Shown: piece after piece, positions 3,945 to 51,114 of the stretch
Numbering within the stretch: the stretch's first letter is position 1
Layout: the number at the start of each line of letters is the position of its first letter
DNA from: Candidatus Zymogenaceae bacterium
GTDB lineage: Bacteria; Desulfobacterota; Zymogenia; Zymogenales; Zymogenaceae
NCBI GenBank assembly: GCA_016931225.1
Contig: JAFGFE010000010.1
Location: 62,001 to 126,000 of the forward strand
Direction of reading: 5' to 3'
DNA: 64,000 nt
The notes under the pieces: model-generated
Database searches by the model: none
Told to the model about the DNA's origin: nothing
What the model saw: only the letters and a program-made list of their open reading frames with translations
Program-made: the position numbers and the translations under genes

Positions 3945-4700
3945 TTATGCTCCGACGCTGGCCAGCGCTCGAGTCCGGTCGATGAAATCGTTCCTGACCA
4001 GGTATTCAAGGGTGTCCCCGGAAAGGATCATTCGATTCTGGTCGGTGCGGGCCGCCCGTGTTCCCGCCTCTAAAAACGCATTAATCGCCTGATGTCTATC
4101 ACCCAGCGCATGATACATGATTCCCCGCATCTGGCATTTCGCCGCATACACCGCCTCCCGAACGGGACCGTCCGGCGCCTGATATACGGACAGCCCTCGG
4201 CGGTAGAGGGGCAGGGGGTTGAGCCCCCTGGCGTTTTCGGCTTTCCCCAGCAGGAACCACGCCCGGACGTCCCGGTTTCCTTCCGGTATCGATTCGATGT
4301 GCCGCAGGCTCTCTTCCAGTCGATGCGTGTTCATCAGGCACAGCGCCAGATCGAATACGATGTCGATACGCCCGGGATTCCCGGAAAGCGAGGCTTCGAA
4401 GTGCCGGGAGGCCTCGGCAAAGCGACCCCGCTCCATTTCAATGAATCCAACGGCGTCGTGGGCGATCGCGTTGTCAGGATCACGGGCGATGATCCTGTTG
4501 AAATATTCTATGCTCTCGTTCGTGCGTCCCAGCTCATACAGGAGCAACCCTGCGTGTCCCCAGGCGGGGGGATTGTCAGGCTCATGCTCCAGCATTTTCA
4601 TGAAATAGTCCAATGAGCGCTGAAAAAACGCCATGCGGTGGGCGTACTCGTCCGTTGTGCAAAAGCTGTGCGGTGGTTCGGTGATTTTCGAAATGGTCAT
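3945..4700 (-). CDS. TPR-repeat protein
   Basis: A 251-residue protein built from tetratricopeptide-like repeats (for example 'AWGHAGLLLYELGRTNESIEYFNRIIARDPDN' spread over consecutive helices, then 'AHDAVGFIEMERGRFAEASRHFEASL'). Such repeats usually mediate protein-protein contacts; no enzymatic domain or signal peptide is visible. The frame is open upstream to 4787, but a strong promoter on the same strand (4741-4769) predicts transcription starting near 4734, so the ATG at 4700 is preferred. It ends 26 bp from the convergent recJ stop. Its partner is unknown. Confidence 0.75.
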   Translation of the reverse strand: MTISKITEPPHSFCTTDEYAHRMAFFQRSLDYFMKMLEHEPDNPPAWGHAGLLLYELGRTNESIEYFNRIIARDPDNAIAHDAVGFIEMERGRFAEASRHFEASLSGNPGRIDIVFDLALCLMNTHRLEESLRHIESIPEGNRDVRAWFLLGKAENARGLNPLPLYRRGLSVYQAPDGPVREAVYAAKCQMRGIMYHALGDRHQAINAFLEAGTRAARTDQNRMILSGDTLEYLVRNDFIDRTRALASVGA

Positions 4701-4740
4701 AACGTCATATATGCAAAAGTGCCGTTCCCATGAAGCGATA

Positions 4741-4769
4741 ATTGTATATCGTATATGCTCGAGTGTCAA
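4741..4769 (-). promoter_or_regulatory. Sigma70-type promoter of the TPR gene
   Basis: Read on the minus strand: TTGACA (4764-4769), a 17-nt spacer and TACAAT (4741-4746). The predicted transcription start near 4734 rules out the longer version of the downstream gene. Confidence 0.7.
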
Positions 4770-4861
4770 AGGATTTGGAGTCATCAAGGAAAACCATTTT
4801 ACTTGCGTTGAGTCTCTTTTGATGATAGAAACAGAAACGGTTTTTATAGGCGATTGATAGA

Positions 4862-5242
4862 ATGATAGAGTTGAATTTTGAGAAGTTTCATGGTCTGGTG
4901 CCGGTGGTGATACAGGATCATGCCGATGGACAGGTTCTCATGGTCGGATTTATGAACCGGGAAGCCTGGGAGCGAACCCTTGCCGAGGGGGAGGTGGTTT
5001 ATTACAGCCGCTCCAGAGACGGTATGTGGAAAAAGGGGGAAACCTCCGGGAACGTCCAGAAGGTAAAAAATATTTTCGTCGATTGCGATGAAGACACCCT
5101 GCTGATTACCGTGGACCAGGTCGGCGGCGCCGCGTGCCATACCGGATACCGCACCTGTTTTTATCGAAGGGTGGTCGATGGGGAGATGGTTGAAGAGGGC
5201 ACGCGCGTGTTTGATCCCGATGAGGTGTACAAGAAGAGCTGA
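4862..5242 (+). CDS. hisI: Phosphoribosyl-AMP cyclohydrolase
   Basis: Opens the adenine ring of phosphoribosyl-AMP, the third step of histidine biosynthesis, in the cytoplasm. At 126 residues it is a stand-alone cyclohydrolase without the HisE pyrophosphohydrolase domain. Diagnostic motifs are [16 protein letters not shown] (about 58-73), the metal-binding DCDEDT segment, and [13 protein letters not shown] with the two zinc-binding cysteines. No other histidine gene is adjacent; a PHP-type histidinol-phosphatase-like gene lies far away near 43 kb. A GC-rich hairpin without a T-run (5257-5278) follows the stop. Confidence 0.93.
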
Positions 5243-5559
5243 TGTGTGTCGTCACCGGGCGCCCGATCTCGAGCGCCCGCATAAAGAGCAGGCTCTGTGA
5301 AGGAAAAAAGCCGATATAAGGAGTATGTCTGTTTTCACCGGCGGGAAGCGACGTGTCGCACAGGTCATGGAGCGGTAGAGGGATCTTTCAGGGAACAGTT
5401 TTCGTCTTTTATGCAAGATGTTACGTGGTTGAAGAAAGACCGTACAGTATGGTATATATCGATTAAAGTGCAGGAAGAACCGATGACAACCGCCGCCGGG
5501 AACAGGTGGCTTTCATTCACAATTCACGACGGGTATTCATATCTATCGTGGAGTATCTC

Positions 5560-44927: not shown

Positions 44928-45326
44928 ATGTACGGAGAACCGCAAGCAACGAAATTCTCCCCCCTGGCGATTATCGGCATGATATTCGCCATTTTCCTCG
45001 TGTTATTCGGATTTCTCAATCTTTATTCCCTGGCCTCTCCCAGCGCCACCAACACCGTGGGGCGTATTATCGTCGCCCTCATCTGCTTCGCCATCGGCGG
45101 AGGCATCATCTTCGCAGTCATCAAGCGGGCCTTCGCGAAGCCGGAGAAGATGGAGGTCATTCAGAAGATCGATCTCACCGGCGACGTGGCGGCCAAGGAG
45201 TTGACCTGCAAAAGCTGCGGGGCGATCCTGGATGACAAGAGCGTGTCGGTCCAGGCGGGCGCGGTGTTCATCTCCTGTCCCTATTGCCACAGCTCCTATC
45301 AACTCACCGAAGACCCGAAGTGGTAG
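44928..45326 (+). CDS. Small membrane protein with a C-terminal zinc ribbon
   Basis: A 132-residue protein with two transmembrane segments (about 11-36 and 45-69) and a C-terminal cytoplasmic domain containing CKSCG (about 93-97) and CPYCH (about 117-121), the four cysteines of a zinc ribbon. A short basic stretch (KRAFAKPEKM) links the two. No family is recognised. There is no Shine-Dalgarno, and the promoter is so close that a leaderless transcript is likely. Confidence 0.72.
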   Translation: MYGEPQATKFSPLAIIGMIFAIFLVLFGFLNLYSLASPSATNTVGRIIVALICFAIGGGIIFAVIKRAFAKPEKMEVIQKIDLTGDVAAKELTCKSCGAILDDKSVSVQAGAVFISCPYCHSSYQLTEDPKW

Positions 45327-45623: not shown

Positions 45624-47315
45624 ATGCACAGGTGGATCGACACGAGAGGGTACAGATCGGCCCGAAAAGCCCTTTTTATCCTGTCGGCGGTGTTATTTGG
45701 TGCGGTCCTCATGCCGGGAGCGGCGACAACGGCCCGGGCTCAGGATTACGCATTCACGGTGCCCCAGAATTATTCGGACGTCTATATCAATACCGACGGC
45801 TCCGTCACCATCCGCTATCAATTGACTTTTTATTGCGAACCGGGCGCTCACGCCATAGATATCGTGGATATCGGGCTTCCTAACGAGAACTACGTTATCT
45901 CCACCGCCCGGGCCTGGACCGACACGGGAGAGATCACGTCCATCTACCCCTCGGAGTACATCGACATCGGCGTCGAGGTCCACCTGGGATCCGCCGCCAT
46001 CTATCCGGGCCAGACCGGCACCCTCTATTTTGAGATACAGAACGACAAGATGGTCTGGTACGACGACGACCAGCCGGACACCCACGCCTCGGTGGAGTTC
46101 TCCCCCACCTGGTACGGCTCCGCCTTCACCTCCGGGGTCACAGACCTGAGCGTCAGCATCCACTTTCCCGAGGGGGTGGGGCCGGACGAGACCATCTATC
46201 ACTACCGGGAGTTCGACAACTGGTACTACGACGATCAGGGACGCATCGCCTTCAACTGGCGTGATACCGAGGCGAAGCCCTCCAAGCAGTACATGTTCGG
46301 GGTCTCGTTCCCTCTGGAGTACGTCGGTGTCGTATACGAACCCTACCACGAGCCGATACTGGTAGCCTTTCTCAAGGTGATCGGGAGCTTTGTCGCCGCC
46401 GTCTTTTTTCTCATCGTCAACCCCTTTACGTTATTCCTGTTCTTTATGATCGGTCTGCCGATCATCAGCGTCATCCAGTCCAAGAGGAGGAAACTGAAAT
46501 ATTTCCCGCCGTCGGCGGCCGTGGAGGGGGTGGGCATCAAGCGGGGCCTGACCGCCCCGGAGGCGGCGATGGTGCTGGAGCAGCCGCTCAACAAGGTGAT
46601 CACGATGATGCTCTTCGGCCTGATGAAGAAGGGATACGTCAGGACCGAGGGGAACGGGACGCCGAAGATTTTCGAGATCAAAAACATTGAGAAACCGGAT
46701 CTCAGGGATTATGAGAAGGAATTTCTGGCGTGCCTCAAAGAGGACGGGACGCTGGATACGGCCAAGCTGAAAAAGGCGATGATCGCCATGATCAAGGCCA
46801 CCAACAAGAAGATCAAGGGCTTTTCCAGAAGAGAGACGAAGGATTATTACGCAAACATCGTCGATCTGGCGTGGCGGCACGTGACCTCCGCTAAAACCCC
46901 GGAGCTGTTGGGCGAGGAGTGGAGCGACAAGCTCGAGTGGATCCTGATGGACAAGAAGTATGGAGAGCGTATGGAGGAGACATTCACCGGCAGGGATATC
47001 ATCATCCCCCGCTGGTATGATACTTACTGGGGATCTCATAGTTCCACGCCCCGAAGCGCGGCGTCCAGGGCCGGCGGCTCCGGGCTGCCGAAGGTCTCCG
47101 GCGCGGATCTCGCCAATAACTTCATCACCGGCGTGGAGAGCTTCTCCGGCAAGCTCGTCTCCAACGTGGAGACCTTCGTCAGCTCCGTCACCGAAACGAC
47201 AAATCCGGCGCCGAAAAGCTCCGGCGGCGGATACAGAGGCGGCGGGGGCGGCGGGTGCGCCTGTGCCTGCGCCTGTGCCGGGTGCGCCTGTGCCTGTGCG
47301 GGAGGAGGGAGATAG
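45624..47315 (+). CDS. Exported/membrane protein (DUF2207-like) with C-terminal Gly-rich run and Cys-Ala repeat tail
   Basis: With the ATG at 45624 (GGGGGGAG upstream) the product has 563 residues. A basic N-terminus and hydrophobic helix ending ATTARAQ form a signal peptide. Residues 42-240 are a beta-rich domain (VYINTDGSVTIRYQLTFYC) like the extracellular part of DUF2207 proteins. About 245-285 is strongly hydrophobic (one long or two short membrane helices), followed by a basic stop and a helical soluble region. The end is striking: a glycine run, then CACACACAGCACACA (545-559) and GGGR. The seven alternating cysteines and the radical SAM gene 3 bp downstream suggest the tail is a modification substrate. 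Confidence 0.8.
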   Translation: MHRWIDTRGYRSARKALFILSAVLFGAVLMPGAATTARAQDYAFTVPQNYSDVYINTDGSVTIRYQLTFYCEPGAHAIDIVDIGLPNENYVISTARAWTDTGEITSIYPSEYIDIGVEVHLGSAAIYPGQTGTLYFEIQNDKMVWYDDDQPDTHASVEFSPTWYGSAFTSGVTDLSVSIHFPEGVGPDETIYHYREFDNWYYDDQGRIAFNWRDTEAKPSKQYMFGVSFPLEYVGVVYEPYHEPILVAFLKVIGSFVAAVFFLIVNPFTLFLFFMIGLPIISVIQSKRRKLKYFPPSAAVEGVGIKRGLTAPEAAMVLEQPLNKVITMMLFGLMKKGYVRTEGNGTPKIFEIKNIEKPDLRDYEKEFLACLKEDGTLDTAKLKKAMIAMIKATNKKIKGFSRRETKDYYANIVDLAWRHVTSAKTPELLGEEWSDKLEWILMDKKYGERMEETFTGRDIIIPRWYDTYWGSHSSTPRSAASRAGGSGLPKVSGADLANNFITGVESFSGKLVSNVETFVSSVTETTNPAPKSSGGGYRGGGGGGCACACACAGCACACAGGGR

Positions 47316-47318
47316 ACC

Positions 47319-48680
47319 ATGAGCATCGTGAGATCATTTGTCGATTTCTTCAAAAAGGAAAAGCCGCTGTCCCCCGGGGTCTATCACCAGCGGGGAGAAT
47401 TCGACCAGGGAGGGCATTACCGGCTTCACCTGCGGGTGGAGGAGGGGGGGAACTCCATCCTCTCCATCGACGCCTCCCGGATACTGCACCTGAACCGAAC
47501 CGCCACCGAATACGCGAAGCTCATCATCGAGGGAAAATCCCGGGACGAGGCGATAAAAACCGTCAGGAAGAGATACCGGGTCGATGGGAAGACGGCTGAA
47601 AAGGACTATGACAGGCTGCTGGAGATCATCGATTCCCTGGTGCATACCGACGATATCTGCCCGGTGTCGTACCTGGATGTGGACCGCATTGAGCCCTTCG
47701 CCACGCCGATTCTCGCCCCTTATCGCATGGACCTGGCGTTGACGTATCGCTGCAACAATAAGTGCGGCCACTGCTATGTGGGGCTGGATCGGAAGGCCGA
47801 TGAGCTGGATACCGAGGCGTGGAGGAATATCCTTAGAAAACTATGGGACATCGGCATCTTCCACGTGGCGTTTACCGGCGGGGAGTCCACCCTGAGGGAC
47901 GACCTGCCGGAGCTGGTGGGGGTCGCCGAAGATTTGGGCATGGTTTCGGGGCTCTTGACCAACGGACGGCGGCTGTCGGACGCGAAGTATCTCCAGCGTC
48001 TGATCGACGAGGGCATCGATTATTTCCAGATCACCCTGGAGTCGTCGGATAAAAAGGTCCACAACGAGATGGTCTGTGCCGAAGCCTTCGATGAGACCGT
48101 GGCCGGCATTAAAAACGCGGCGGCGAGCCCCATCCACACCATCACCAACACCACCATCACCAGTATCAACGCCCATACCCTGGAGGAGACCGTTGCCTTC
48201 GTCAAATCCCTTGGGGTGGACGCGTTCGCTATGAACGGCATCATCTACACCGGCGAGGCGGCGGAGGGCGAGACGGCCGTATCCGAAGACGACCTGCATG
48301 ATATCCTCGTTCGCGTCAGCGACGCCGCCCGGGAGCATGATCTCCGATTTATCTGGTACACCCCCACCCAGTACTGCCGATTCAACCCGATGGATCTGGA
48401 TCTGGGGATGAAACAGTGCACCGCCGGGAGGTTCAACATGTGCATCGAGCCCAACGGAGACGCACTCCCCTGTCAGAGCTACTTCGAGCCGGTGGGCAAT
48501 ATTCTCAGGGATCGGTGGGAGGATATCTGGAACCACCCGCTGCTGGTTGGAATGCGACGTCGCTCGTTCGTGATGGATAAATGTGCGGACTGCGACCTCT
48601 TCTCCCTGTGCGGAGGGGGATGTCCCCTGGAGCGGGATCACGACACGTATCTCTGCGCCGAGAGCATGAGCAGCCCCTAA
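47319..48680 (+). CDS. Radical SAM/SPASM peptide-modifying enzyme with PqqD-like N-terminal domain
   Basis: A 453-residue enzyme coupled to the Cys-Ala tail gene. Residues about 20-110 resemble a PqqD-type RiPP recognition element (SILSIDASRILHLNRTATEY, then a GKSRDEAIKTVRKRY helix). The radical SAM cluster is C145-NNK-C149-GH-C152 and SAM binding is at FTGGESTLRDDLPEL. The C-terminal SPASM domain has cysteines in KQCTAGRFNMCIEPNGDALPC and KCADCDLFSLCGGGC for auxiliary Fe-S clusters. This build is that of enzymes that form thioether or carbon bonds in ribosomal peptides. GGGAG precedes the ATG. The substrate assignment to the upstream tail is inference. Confidence 0.88.
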   Translation: MSIVRSFVDFFKKEKPLSPGVYHQRGEFDQGGHYRLHLRVEEGGNSILSIDASRILHLNRTATEYAKLIIEGKSRDEAIKTVRKRYRVDGKTAEKDYDRLLEIIDSLVHTDDICPVSYLDVDRIEPFATPILAPYRMDLALTYRCNNKCGHCYVGLDRKADELDTEAWRNILRKLWDIGIFHVAFTGGESTLRDDLPELVGVAEDLGMVSGLLTNGRRLSDAKYLQRLIDEGIDYFQITLESSDKKVHNEMVCAEAFDETVAGIKNAAASPIHTITNTTITSINAHTLEETVAFVKSLGVDAFAMNGIIYTGEAAEGETAVSEDDLHDILVRVSDAAREHDLRFIWYTPTQYCRFNPMDLDLGMKQCTAGRFNMCIEPNGDALPCQSYFEPVGNILRDRWEDIWNHPLLVGMRRRSFVMDKCADCDLFSLCGGGCPLERDHDTYLCAESMSSP

Positions 48681-48750: not shown

Positions 48751-49782
48751 ATGTTTCATCCAGATCTATGCGTACAATGCGGAACCTGCCTGAGCCAATG
48801 TCCCACCCTGTCATATCCCGTGGATAAGGCGAAAGAGGAAATCAAAAAACTGATCGACAAAAAGCCGACGCCGGTCACCGCCGAGTGTATCACGTGTGCG
48901 GCCTGCAACACCTTTTGCCCCGAGGGGGCGAATCCCTTCGATCTGATCAACGACCGACAGGAGGAAACCGGCGATTTCAAGGTGGGGGAGCGTTCCATTG
49001 CAATGATGTCCGGCGCGCCGATGATGCCCACCCAGGTGATCGAGGGGGATACAGATAAGCCGACGTTGAGCCTCTGCAGCGTTGGGGGGCTGATACCCGG
49101 CGCCATCGAGGGACGCCTCTTTGAGGGACTGACCATCCTCACAGGCGGGGATTATTTCTGTTACATCGGGTGGATTCATCTGGGCAAACCCTCAATGGTC
49201 CGGGAACACGCGGAAAAGACGGTTCGAAACCTGGCCGCCACGGGTGCTGCGGAGATCGTCTGTTATCACGACGACTGCTATGCGCTCCTGGCGAACAAGG
49301 CACCGGAGATGGGCATAGACGTTCCCTTCAGGCCGATTCACTTCATCGAGTATCTCAGGGACTATGTGAAAGATAACCTGAACGATGTGACGCCCCTGAA
49401 CATGAAGGTCGCCTACCAGCAGCCCTGCGCGTCGCGCTACTCCATGGAGAAAGACCCGATCCTGGACGAGCTGTTCGGATACATCGGGGTGGAGCGGGTG
49501 GAGCGGGAGTACGATCGGGATCGGGCGCTGTGTTGCAGCGGTCCCATGAGGGCGATGGAGAATGTGTCGGACGAGGAGGTATTCGCCTGGCGGAACAAGA
49601 ACGTGGATGACGCGAAAGATCACGGGGCCGAGGCGATGATCTATCTTTGCCCCCTGTGCGCCCTGGCCCTTCGGTATACCGCCAACGAGGCGGGGCTGGA
49701 ATCCTACATGATCGGGAACCTCGTCCGAAAGGCGCTAGGGGAGGAGCTTCCCCTGGGGGGTGTGGGTCAGGCGCCTGTATGA
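48751..49782 (+). CDS. HdrB/CCG-domain Fe-S protein with two ferredoxin-type clusters
   Basis: A 343-residue redox protein. The N-terminus has two [4Fe-4S] motifs, CVQCGTCLSQCPTLS and CITCAACNTFCPEG. Later come CCG-type segments (CYHDDCYALL; QPCASRY; ALCCSGPM; YLCPLCALALRY) of the heterodisulfide reductase/GlpC class, which bind a further, non-canonical cluster. It should pass electrons between a ferredoxin-like donor and a thiol/disulfide or quinone-type partner. It lies 70 bp after the radical SAM gene with its own AAGGAG site, so it may supply electrons to that system, but this is only context. Confidence 0.82.
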   Translation: MFHPDLCVQCGTCLSQCPTLSYPVDKAKEEIKKLIDKKPTPVTAECITCAACNTFCPEGANPFDLINDRQEETGDFKVGERSIAMMSGAPMMPTQVIEGDTDKPTLSLCSVGGLIPGAIEGRLFEGLTILTGGDYFCYIGWIHLGKPSMVREHAEKTVRNLAATGAAEIVCYHDDCYALLANKAPEMGIDVPFRPIHFIEYLRDYVKDNLNDVTPLNMKVAYQQPCASRYSMEKDPILDELFGYIGVERVEREYDRDRALCCSGPMRAMENVSDEEVFAWRNKNVDDAKDHGAEAMIYLCPLCALALRYTANEAGLESYMIGNLVRKALGEELPLGGVGQAPV

Positions 49783-49930: not shown

Positions 49931-50257
49931 TCAGTAGATACGCTTTCCGTTCGTTACCTTCCGCTCGGGACCCAGAAGCGCCACACCGCCCTCTCCATCC
50001 ACCCCCAGTATGAGCACCTCGGAAGAGACCCCTGCGATGACCTTGGGGGGGAAGTTGATTACGGCAACCACCTGCCGCCCCGTCAGATCCTCGGGTGTGT
50101 AGAGATCGGTAATCTGTGCGCTGGATGTTTTCTTTCCCAGGGGACCGAAGTCTATGGTCAAGGAATAGGCCGGTTTCTTCGCCCTGGGATTTTGTTCGGC
50201 CTTCAGTATGGTGCCGATGCGCATATCGACTTTTTCGAAATCATCGTAGCGTATCAT
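49931..50257 (-). CDS. csaA: CsaA-like tRNA-binding protein
   Basis: A 108-residue stand-alone OB-fold of the EMAP II/tRNA-binding type, related to CsaA and the C-terminal domain of MetRS. The motifs MIRYDDFEKVDMRIGTILKAE, SSAQITDLYTPEDLTGRQVVAVINFPP and SEVLILGVDGEGGVALLGPE follow the family closely. CsaA of Bacillus has chaperone and export-related activity and binds tRNA; the role here is unknown. AGGAGAT precedes the ATG. It is divergent from the methyltransferase gene. Confidence 0.85.
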   Translation of the reverse strand: MIRYDDFEKVDMRIGTILKAEQNPRAKKPAYSLTIDFGPLGKKTSSAQITDLYTPEDLTGRQVVAVINFPPKVIAGVSSEVLILGVDGEGGVALLGPERKVTNGKRIY

Positions 50258-50370: not shown

Positions 50371-51114
50371 ATGGATGATACACTGACCCCCGACGACCGC
50401 TACTACCGCCTCCAGGCGGGATGGACCCGGCCCCATCGAAACGCCCTGTACCGGCGTATCAACCTCTCAGGGCGGCGTCGGGTACTGGATATCGGGTGCG
50501 CCGACGGATTCATTACCGAAGAGATAGCCCGAAAGGCCGACGGCCCGGTTACCGGCATAGACATCGACGCCGACGCCGTTTTTCGGGGGAGGGCCCGCTT
50601 CCCGGAACTGGATCTCAGGGCAGAGGACGCGTGCGGGCTCCCCTTCAAAAAGGGGGAATTCGACGCCGTTATTACGAGCTTCACCCTGATGTGGATCGCG
50701 GATCCCTCCAGGGTCTTGAGGGAGGTGCGGCGGGTGCTGGAGTCGGGGGGTCTGTTTTTGGCCACCGGGGAGCCTGACCACGGCGGGCGTATCGACTGGC
50801 CGAAACAGTGCGATGTGAAACAACCCTGGATCGACGCCCTCTCCCGTCAGGGGGCGGACCCGTTTTTCGGGAGAAAAATGGCGTCTTTGATTTCCGTCTC
50901 GGGCCTCGATGTGGTCGATGTGGGGGTGTTGTCGTCCCTGTGGGGCGGGGAGGAGGGTGAGGGGAGGGAGACCTACCTCGACGATCTGAGGCTTCAGCTT
51001 TCCGATCATGTGCCCGACATCGAGGGGCTCATAGTCGATGAGCGCCGGGCCCAGGATGAAGGCGAGCGGCTCGTCTTTCTTCCCATCTTCTGGGCCGTGG
51101 CGAAAAAGAGGTGA
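50371..51114 (+). CDS. Class I SAM-dependent methyltransferase
   Basis: A 247-residue methyltransferase with motif I VLDIGCADGFITEEIA at about 35-50, the acidic residue ending motif II in GIDIDADAV, DACGLPFKKGEFDAVITSF and LREVRRVLESGGLFLATGEP (motif post-III). This is the UbiE/Methyltransf_11 pattern; such enzymes act on small molecules, lipids or quinone precursors. The C-terminal 70 residues show no known specificity. No clear ribosome binding site; the ATG agrees with the expected domain boundary. Confidence 0.85.
   Translation: MDDTLTPDDRYYRLQAGWTRPHRNALYRRINLSGRRRVLDIGCADGFITEEIARKADGPVTGIDIDADAVFRGRARFPELDLRAEDACGLPFKKGEFDAVITSFTLMWIADPSRVLREVRRVLESGGLFLATGEPDHGGRIDWPKQCDVKQPWIDALSRQGADPFFGRKMASLISVSGLDVVDVGVLSSLWGGEEGEGRETYLDDLRLQLSDHVPDIEGLIVDERRAQDEGERLVFLPIFWAVAKKR

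Follow-up and report, generated by a model that had tools for sequence, protein, structure and literature searches.

Maturation of peptides by radical SAM enzymes usually yields small secreted peptides or cofactors. In sactipeptide and ranthipeptide systems, the maturases (SkfB, RumMC, CteB, and PapB) combine an RRE with radical SAM and SPASM domains, and a Cys-rich substrate is encoded next door as a short precursor with a cleavable leader, accompanied by a protease and an exporter. Judging by its name, ACGX (TIGR04340) is probably a radical SAM-SPASM enzyme that targets an Ala-Cys repeat; it served as a lead only. Proteins of the DUF2207 and TPM (YgcG) families consist of a signal peptide, a beta ectodomain, transmembrane (TM) segments, and a Gly-rich C-terminus; the tails of ordinary members are Gly-Ser sequences devoid of Cys, and these proteins are not known to have a radical SAM partner. 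The closest published idea concerns TIGR04222 membrane proteins and MNIO (DUF692) enzymes, for which Cys-rich membrane-protein tails were proposed as MNIO substrates (PMC12452194).

The locus analyzed here resembles the TIGR04222/MNIO pair in that a putative peptide-modifying metalloenzyme is encoded alongside a membrane protein whose C-terminal tail is of low complexity (Gly/Ser/Cys). The enzyme, however, is an RRE-radical SAM-SPASM protein instead of an MNIO, the membrane protein is a different one, and the tail is predicted to be cytosolic rather than periplasmic. In addition, the tail is far more conserved than TIGR04222 tails, being identical in bacteria and archaea, and it always co-occurs with the enzyme, whereas MNIO is missing from a third of TIGR04222 genomes (PMC12452194). 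The RRE-radical SAM-SPASM architecture and a Cys-rich candidate substrate encoded next door are shared with the sactipeptide and ranthipeptide systems. Unlike in those systems, the candidate substrate is the C-terminus of a membrane protein of 500-650 aa, the short precursor with its leader, protease, and exporter is not found, methyltransferase and zinc-ribbon partners are conserved, and the enzyme scores far below curated cut-offs. The layout of signal peptide, beta ectodomain, TM region, and Gly-rich C-terminus is held in common with DUF2207 and TPM proteins. No papers on a radical SAM enzyme with a DUF2207, ACGX, or TPM domain were found in the open-access literature, and the tail protein family, the enzyme family, and their pairing were absent from the family libraries and open-access papers searched. 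Because only open-access papers were covered, this absence of reports is weak evidence.

The window, i.e. the whole stretch of 64,000 nucleotides that was analyzed, belongs to a draft genome of 3.7 Mb. Its tail protein has the following parts:

45624..47315, plus strand: tail protein of 563 aa with signal peptide, beta-sandwich ectodomain, TM, winged-helix and helical region, Gly linker, and Cys-Ala tail
45753..46313, plus strand: beta-sandwich ectodomain, residues 44-230, AlphaFold2 pLDDT mostly >90
46347..46484, plus strand: transmembrane segment from hydropathy, residues 242-287, followed by KRRKLK-type charges
46554..46679, plus strand: winged-helix-like segment with EGVGIKRGLTAPEAA motif, residues 311-352, weakly overlapping DUF2207_C
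47256..47312, plus strand: Cys-Ala tail CACACACAGCACACAGGGR, residues 545-563, invariant in 19 homologues except for the number of CA units and covered by the codon test described below

The open reading frame confirmed the membrane protein of 563 residues with seven Cys alternating with Ala that had been reported in an initial annotation. Its translation reads GGGGGG-CACACACAGCACACA-GGGR at the C-terminus, and the last residues, GGGGGGCACACACAGCACACAGGGR, are directly followed by the stop codon. In the AlphaFold2 model, the chain runs from the signal peptide through the ectodomain, TM region, winged-helix-like segment, and helical region into a disordered tail. Foldseek matched the ectodomain model to ribophorin I and to the M1 aminopeptidase N-domain, and searching the PDB by sequence with this protein family gave no match. 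The tail protein was not named by any Pfam or NCBIfam model above cut-off, and TIGR04222 (NCBIfam) did not match it. The initial annotation had called the protein DUF2207-like. For the tail protein itself this likeness is weak: the Pfam model DUF2207_C gave E=0.057 and matched only 2 of 19 homologues, all weakly, type I tail proteins (defined below) fell short of the PF09972 and PF20990 cut-offs, and a PF09972 search of the protein's own genome was without a match. The term does apply to a distant relative, a true DUF2207 protein described below.

As judged by hydropathy, bacterial tail proteins possess a single TM region followed by Arg/Lys, and Lokiarchaeota members possess three TMs. Because one TM with KRR-type charges in the former and three TMs in the latter both predict a C-terminus inside the cell, the tail probably sits in the cytosol, where it would be accessible to a cytosolic enzyme. 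The surface-exposed tail originally envisaged is therefore unlikely. A hairpin reading of the 46-residue hydrophobic stretch of protein P0001 would place the tail of that one protein outside.

The radical SAM/SPASM gene stated to follow three bases downstream was found as described, with its ATG at 47319, 3 bases past the tail-protein stop codon, and with a full set of cluster ligands:

47319..48680, plus strand: RRE-radical SAM-SPASM enzyme, 453 aa
47376..47645, plus strand: PqqD-like RRE, residues 20-109, three strands and three helices (PF05402 above cut-off and AlphaFold2 model)
47751..47774, plus strand: CxxxCxxC radical SAM cluster ligands C145, C149, and C152, invariant in the enzyme alignment
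48375..48656, plus strand: SPASM region with C353, C367-x12-G380-x4-C385, C422-x2-C425-x5-C431-x3-C435, and C446

Pfam assigned Radical_SAM (PF04055, 3e-23), SPASM (PF13186, 3e-10), and PqqD (PF05402, 1.8e-6, residues 47-102). The AlphaFold2 model (pTM 0.83) placed a three-strand, three-helix RRE at the N-terminus, in agreement with the earlier suggestion that the first ~90 residues are a peptide recognition element. The Cys residues of the SPASM region are invariant in the alignment, save C446 (conserved in at least 90%), and obey the SPASM ligand pattern CX9-15GX4C...CX2CX5CX3C...C. From sequence, the conserved Cys set matches what would be expected for a radical SAM cluster and, in addition, two auxiliary clusters with all ligands in place. 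The closest solved structures are peptide maturases, namely PqqE, SkfB, SuiB, and CteB; EpeE was among the weaker structural matches and SbtM-type maturases were among the distant sequence matches. The enzyme stayed below every curated NCBIfam radical SAM cut-off (PqqE, mycofactocin, GeoRSP, ACGX, and StsB), with 120 bits versus 381 for PqqE as the best value, 98 versus 400 for GeoRSP, and 82 versus 400 for ACGX. Second radical SAM-like copies adjoin the active enzyme at L023:2357-3709 and L105:5961-7283 (minus strand). Their frames are intact and their cluster cysteines are lost, and they are possible pseudo-enzyme partner subunits.

Co-occurrence of tail and enzyme was evaluated by searching the DNA pattern (CA)3G(CA)3GG in 228 Asgard and 297 Acidobacteriota genomes. 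It occurred in 15 and 19 of them, respectively, with one copy each, and the reversed pattern was not matched in any of the 525 genomes. All 34 matches were C-termini of a single tail-protein family. The initial annotation had named tails without a radical SAM gene as the case that would speak against the pairing; the enzyme was present in every tail genome tested (19/19 Acidobacteriota and 15/15 Asgard). Its gene lies directly 3' of the tail gene in 30 of the 34 (one partial, at a contig end). Four Asgard genomes (G227, G228, G230, and G231) at first seemed to lack the enzyme, but it was found elsewhere in each of these genomes, on another contig. Among tail-negative Asgard genomes, none of the 11 tested contained the enzyme above 200 bits. 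When Acidobacteriota were searched from the enzyme side, 31 genomes were recovered and 30 had a Cys-Ala-type tail, the exception lying at a contig end. Of 395 genomes from the phylum to which the window belongs, 5 had the enzyme, and the tail was present in all five. Fisher's test of type I tail against any enzyme match gave p 1.3e-19, and for every complete enzyme locus a tail was present somewhere in the same genome.

Conservation of the tail was assessed on homologues recruited via motifs of the protein body and not via the tail. A genome-wide search of this kind led to 20 loci in Zymogenia, WOR-3, Aminicenantes, Acidobacteriota, Fermentibacterota, and Lokiarchaeota. Candidatus Zymogenaceae MAGs are the closest named relatives of the window, and in three relatives from the family, 57% of the body and the entire tail (100%) are shared. 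In a 19-row alignment, body identity to the window protein was 34-58%, the linker preceding the tail was variable Gly/Ser, and every row ended in CACACAGCACACAGGGR. Across homologues, body identity dropped to about 22-40%, whereas the tail was identical save for the number of CA units, of which 3, 4, or 5 precede the Gly and 3 follow it (one 3+4 case). An 11-residue core, GCACACAGGGR, is almost constant from bacterial phyla to Asgard archaea. For 17 tail codons in the 20 loci found without use of the tail, pairwise comparison yielded 1,984 synonymous versus 0 nonsynonymous differences; with tail-pattern loci added (47 loci, a set partly chosen by the pattern) the figures were 11,206 versus 0. 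The codon differences at the 20 loci and the unmatched reversed pattern show that the tail is conserved far beyond chance, and conservation of such a low-complexity sequence implies that the product is precise and that its use in the cell is a core one. No tail was matched in 2.9 million viral contigs, indicating that this is not a phage system. One frayed tail (L026:4405-6321) was rejected as a real variant, as the contig is chimeric: an assembly error inside the repeat has joined it to unrelated GC-rich sequence.

Tails of type I read (CA)3-5-G-(CA)3-GGGR. More distant enzymes accompany other tails, (ACHS)n and CACACVSCACACACA, and each variant tail type corresponds to one clade of the enzyme tree. 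Thus, tail type follows enzyme clade. The type II tail is SCACACVSCACACACAGGGGAGC plus a short extension, and its gene is located after the enzyme gene and before a TPM-domain gene:

L106:9111-9671: TPM-domain (YgcG-like) gene 3' of the type II tail gene
L107:4414-4977, minus strand: TPM-domain (YgcG-like) gene 3' of the type II tail gene

Type III tails are ACHS repeats, in which Ala precedes each Cys, and end in ACVSGGAH or similar. Similarity of type III proteins is weak (25-56 bits for the membrane protein and about 250-330 bits for the enzyme). In two type III genomes the tail is not adjacent to the enzyme but is encoded elsewhere in the genome. ACHS tails resemble the presumed repeat target of ACGX; the low ACGX score of the enzyme was given above. 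A still more distant pair occurs in an Asgard genome, where a true DUF2207 protein, whose cytosolic tail is CGGCGGGGGGGGGCGGCGG (CGGCGG), adjoins a radical SAM-SPASM enzyme without RRE (L074:5309-6271 and 4196-5248, both minus strand). This pair may represent a fourth tail type.

Within type I, distances between enzymes correlated with distances between tail-less protein bodies (Mantel/Spearman 0.70; at most 0.22 in 2,000 permutations), and the body tree recovered eight lineage groups in agreement with the enzyme tree. The initial annotation had raised co-variation of tail length as a check. Length does not follow enzyme number: five leading CA units go with two enzymes at L023 and with the one enzyme found at L046. 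Taken together, co-occurrence, the match of tail type and clade, and the Mantel correlation make it very probable that the enzyme acts on the tail, as the initial annotation had proposed.

CxC motifs bind soft metals, and an unmodified CxC tail could itself bind metal. The tail might accordingly serve as a plain metal or Fe-S ligand, with the enzyme directed elsewhere, e.g. at a tail-bound cofactor. The zinc ribbon of the partner protein would suit such a role, and the methyltransferase could serve a small-molecule cofactor. We consider this improbable: an RRE domain is a mark of peptide substrates, the tail sequence shifts with the enzyme clade, and small-molecule pathway genes are not conserved at these loci.

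The interval 45624-48680 singled out initially encloses tail protein and enzyme but leaves out two conserved partner genes:

44928..45326, plus strand: two-TM protein with C-terminal zinc ribbon, CxxC...CxxC, ending in PKW (Zn_Ribbon_TF, 6.6e-7)
50371..51114, plus strand: class I SAM-dependent methyltransferase (Methyltransf_11, 4.5e-21), a recurrent cassette gene

The zinc-ribbon gene is situated just upstream of the tail gene, as in most type I loci, and four Cys and one Trp are invariant among 12 homologues. The methyltransferase gene of the window is shifted 1.7 kb downstream, and at many other loci it directly adjoins the enzyme gene or overlaps with it. Between enzyme and methyltransferase the window contains a ferredoxin/CCG-domain protein (48751-49782) and a small tRNA-binding (CsaA-like) reading frame (49931-50257, minus strand), for which no counterpart was seen in other loci. 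At many of the examined type I Acidobacteriota loci no methyltransferase was matched, and none stands beside the enzyme at L011, implying no strict requirement for it at this position. In G227, G228, G230, and G231, the methyltransferase gene accompanies the relocated enzyme gene, and the zinc-ribbon gene has stayed beside the tail gene. This split distinguishes a modifying pair (enzyme and methyltransferase) from a membrane pair (tail and zinc-ribbon proteins). In Lokiarchaeota, a conserved SIR2-family gene is found divergently upstream of the cassette (L022:4725-5483, L024:2633-3391, and L025:4727-5485, all minus strand). In a WOR-3 genome, a gene for an SPFH/Band 7 protein with zinc ribbons lies directly upstream (L010:2834-3955), hinting at a membrane-stress context.

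The conserved set comprises the small protein, tail protein, enzyme, and methyltransferase; as noted before, no leader, protease, or exporter is conserved across the loci. This differs from classical RiPP clusters and speaks against a dedicated substrate. The missing protease and exporter also weigh against a tail that is modified and then cleaved off as a small product, as with PQQ or mycofactocin. That the enzyme belongs to the same superfamily as in those systems, that the tail is C-terminal, and that a methyltransferase could tailor the product would agree with such a precursor. A membrane protein of 500 residues with a conserved ectodomain is, however, an unlikely leader, and only a single copy is present per genome; we regard excision as very improbable.

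On balance, and with somewhat better than even confidence, we favor a reading in which Cys-Ala thioethers are formed in place, the methyltransferase adds a second mark, and the tail is kept as a module of a membrane sensor. After insertion of the membrane protein, the beta-sandwich domain would be outside, and both the winged-helix region and the tail would be cytosolic. The enzyme would dock with its PqqD-like domain close to the tail and would use a 5'-deoxyadenosyl radical to alter the Cys-Ala repeats, most likely by forming thioethers between Cys sulfur and Ala alpha-carbon (sactionine type, -2 Da each). The partner methyltransferase would add a second modification. Never excised, the finished tail could act as a compact redox, metal-binding, or rigid signaling module, and tail protein and zinc-ribbon protein would constitute a two-protein membrane sensor.

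The thioether, by analogy, has about an even chance of being the bond formed. It is our first choice because bonds of this kind are made by the closest maturases and because ruminococcin C provides a known example of alanine as the C-alpha acceptor of a thioether (PMC8188230). Alternatively, the enzyme could alter the tail by epimerization (giving a D/L tail, a beta-helix), by converting Cys to a thio-oxazole-type ligand, or by forming carbon-carbon bonds. The strict alternation fits an epimerase, the EpeE and SbtM matches are in favor of such other chemistry, and MNIO, for which Cys-rich membrane tails are proposed substrates, makes Cys-derived heterocycles (PMC12452194). ACHS and VSC tails lack the alternation, the best enzyme matches are cross-linking maturases, and PqqE-type bonds would find neither an aromatic nor a Lys/Glu partner, so that such other chemistry appears unlikely, if less so than an unmodified tail. 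As for the role of a thioether-bearing tail, a membrane-sensor module that responds to redox state or metals is weakly suggested; it is the simplest fit because of the zinc ribbon, the winged helix, and the upstream SPFH/Band 7 gene in WOR-3.

The apparent substrate is thus the permanent end of a membrane protein. We tentatively propose, at somewhat less than even confidence, a family of in-place maturation systems that bacteria share with Asgard archaea. In these, the cytosolic tail of a membrane sensor would be made into an unexcised, thioether-laced module by a radical SAM enzyme together with a methyltransferase, and the tail chemotypes matched to enzyme clades would number at least three (CA, CACACVSC, and ACHS). 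This pairing of tail type and enzyme clade renders substrate recognition directly testable by swaps. If the proposal is true, cells would build covalent prosthetic structures into membrane proteins with RiPP enzymes, and uncharacterized Cys-tailed proteins (with CA, ACHS, and CGG tails) would become open to annotation.
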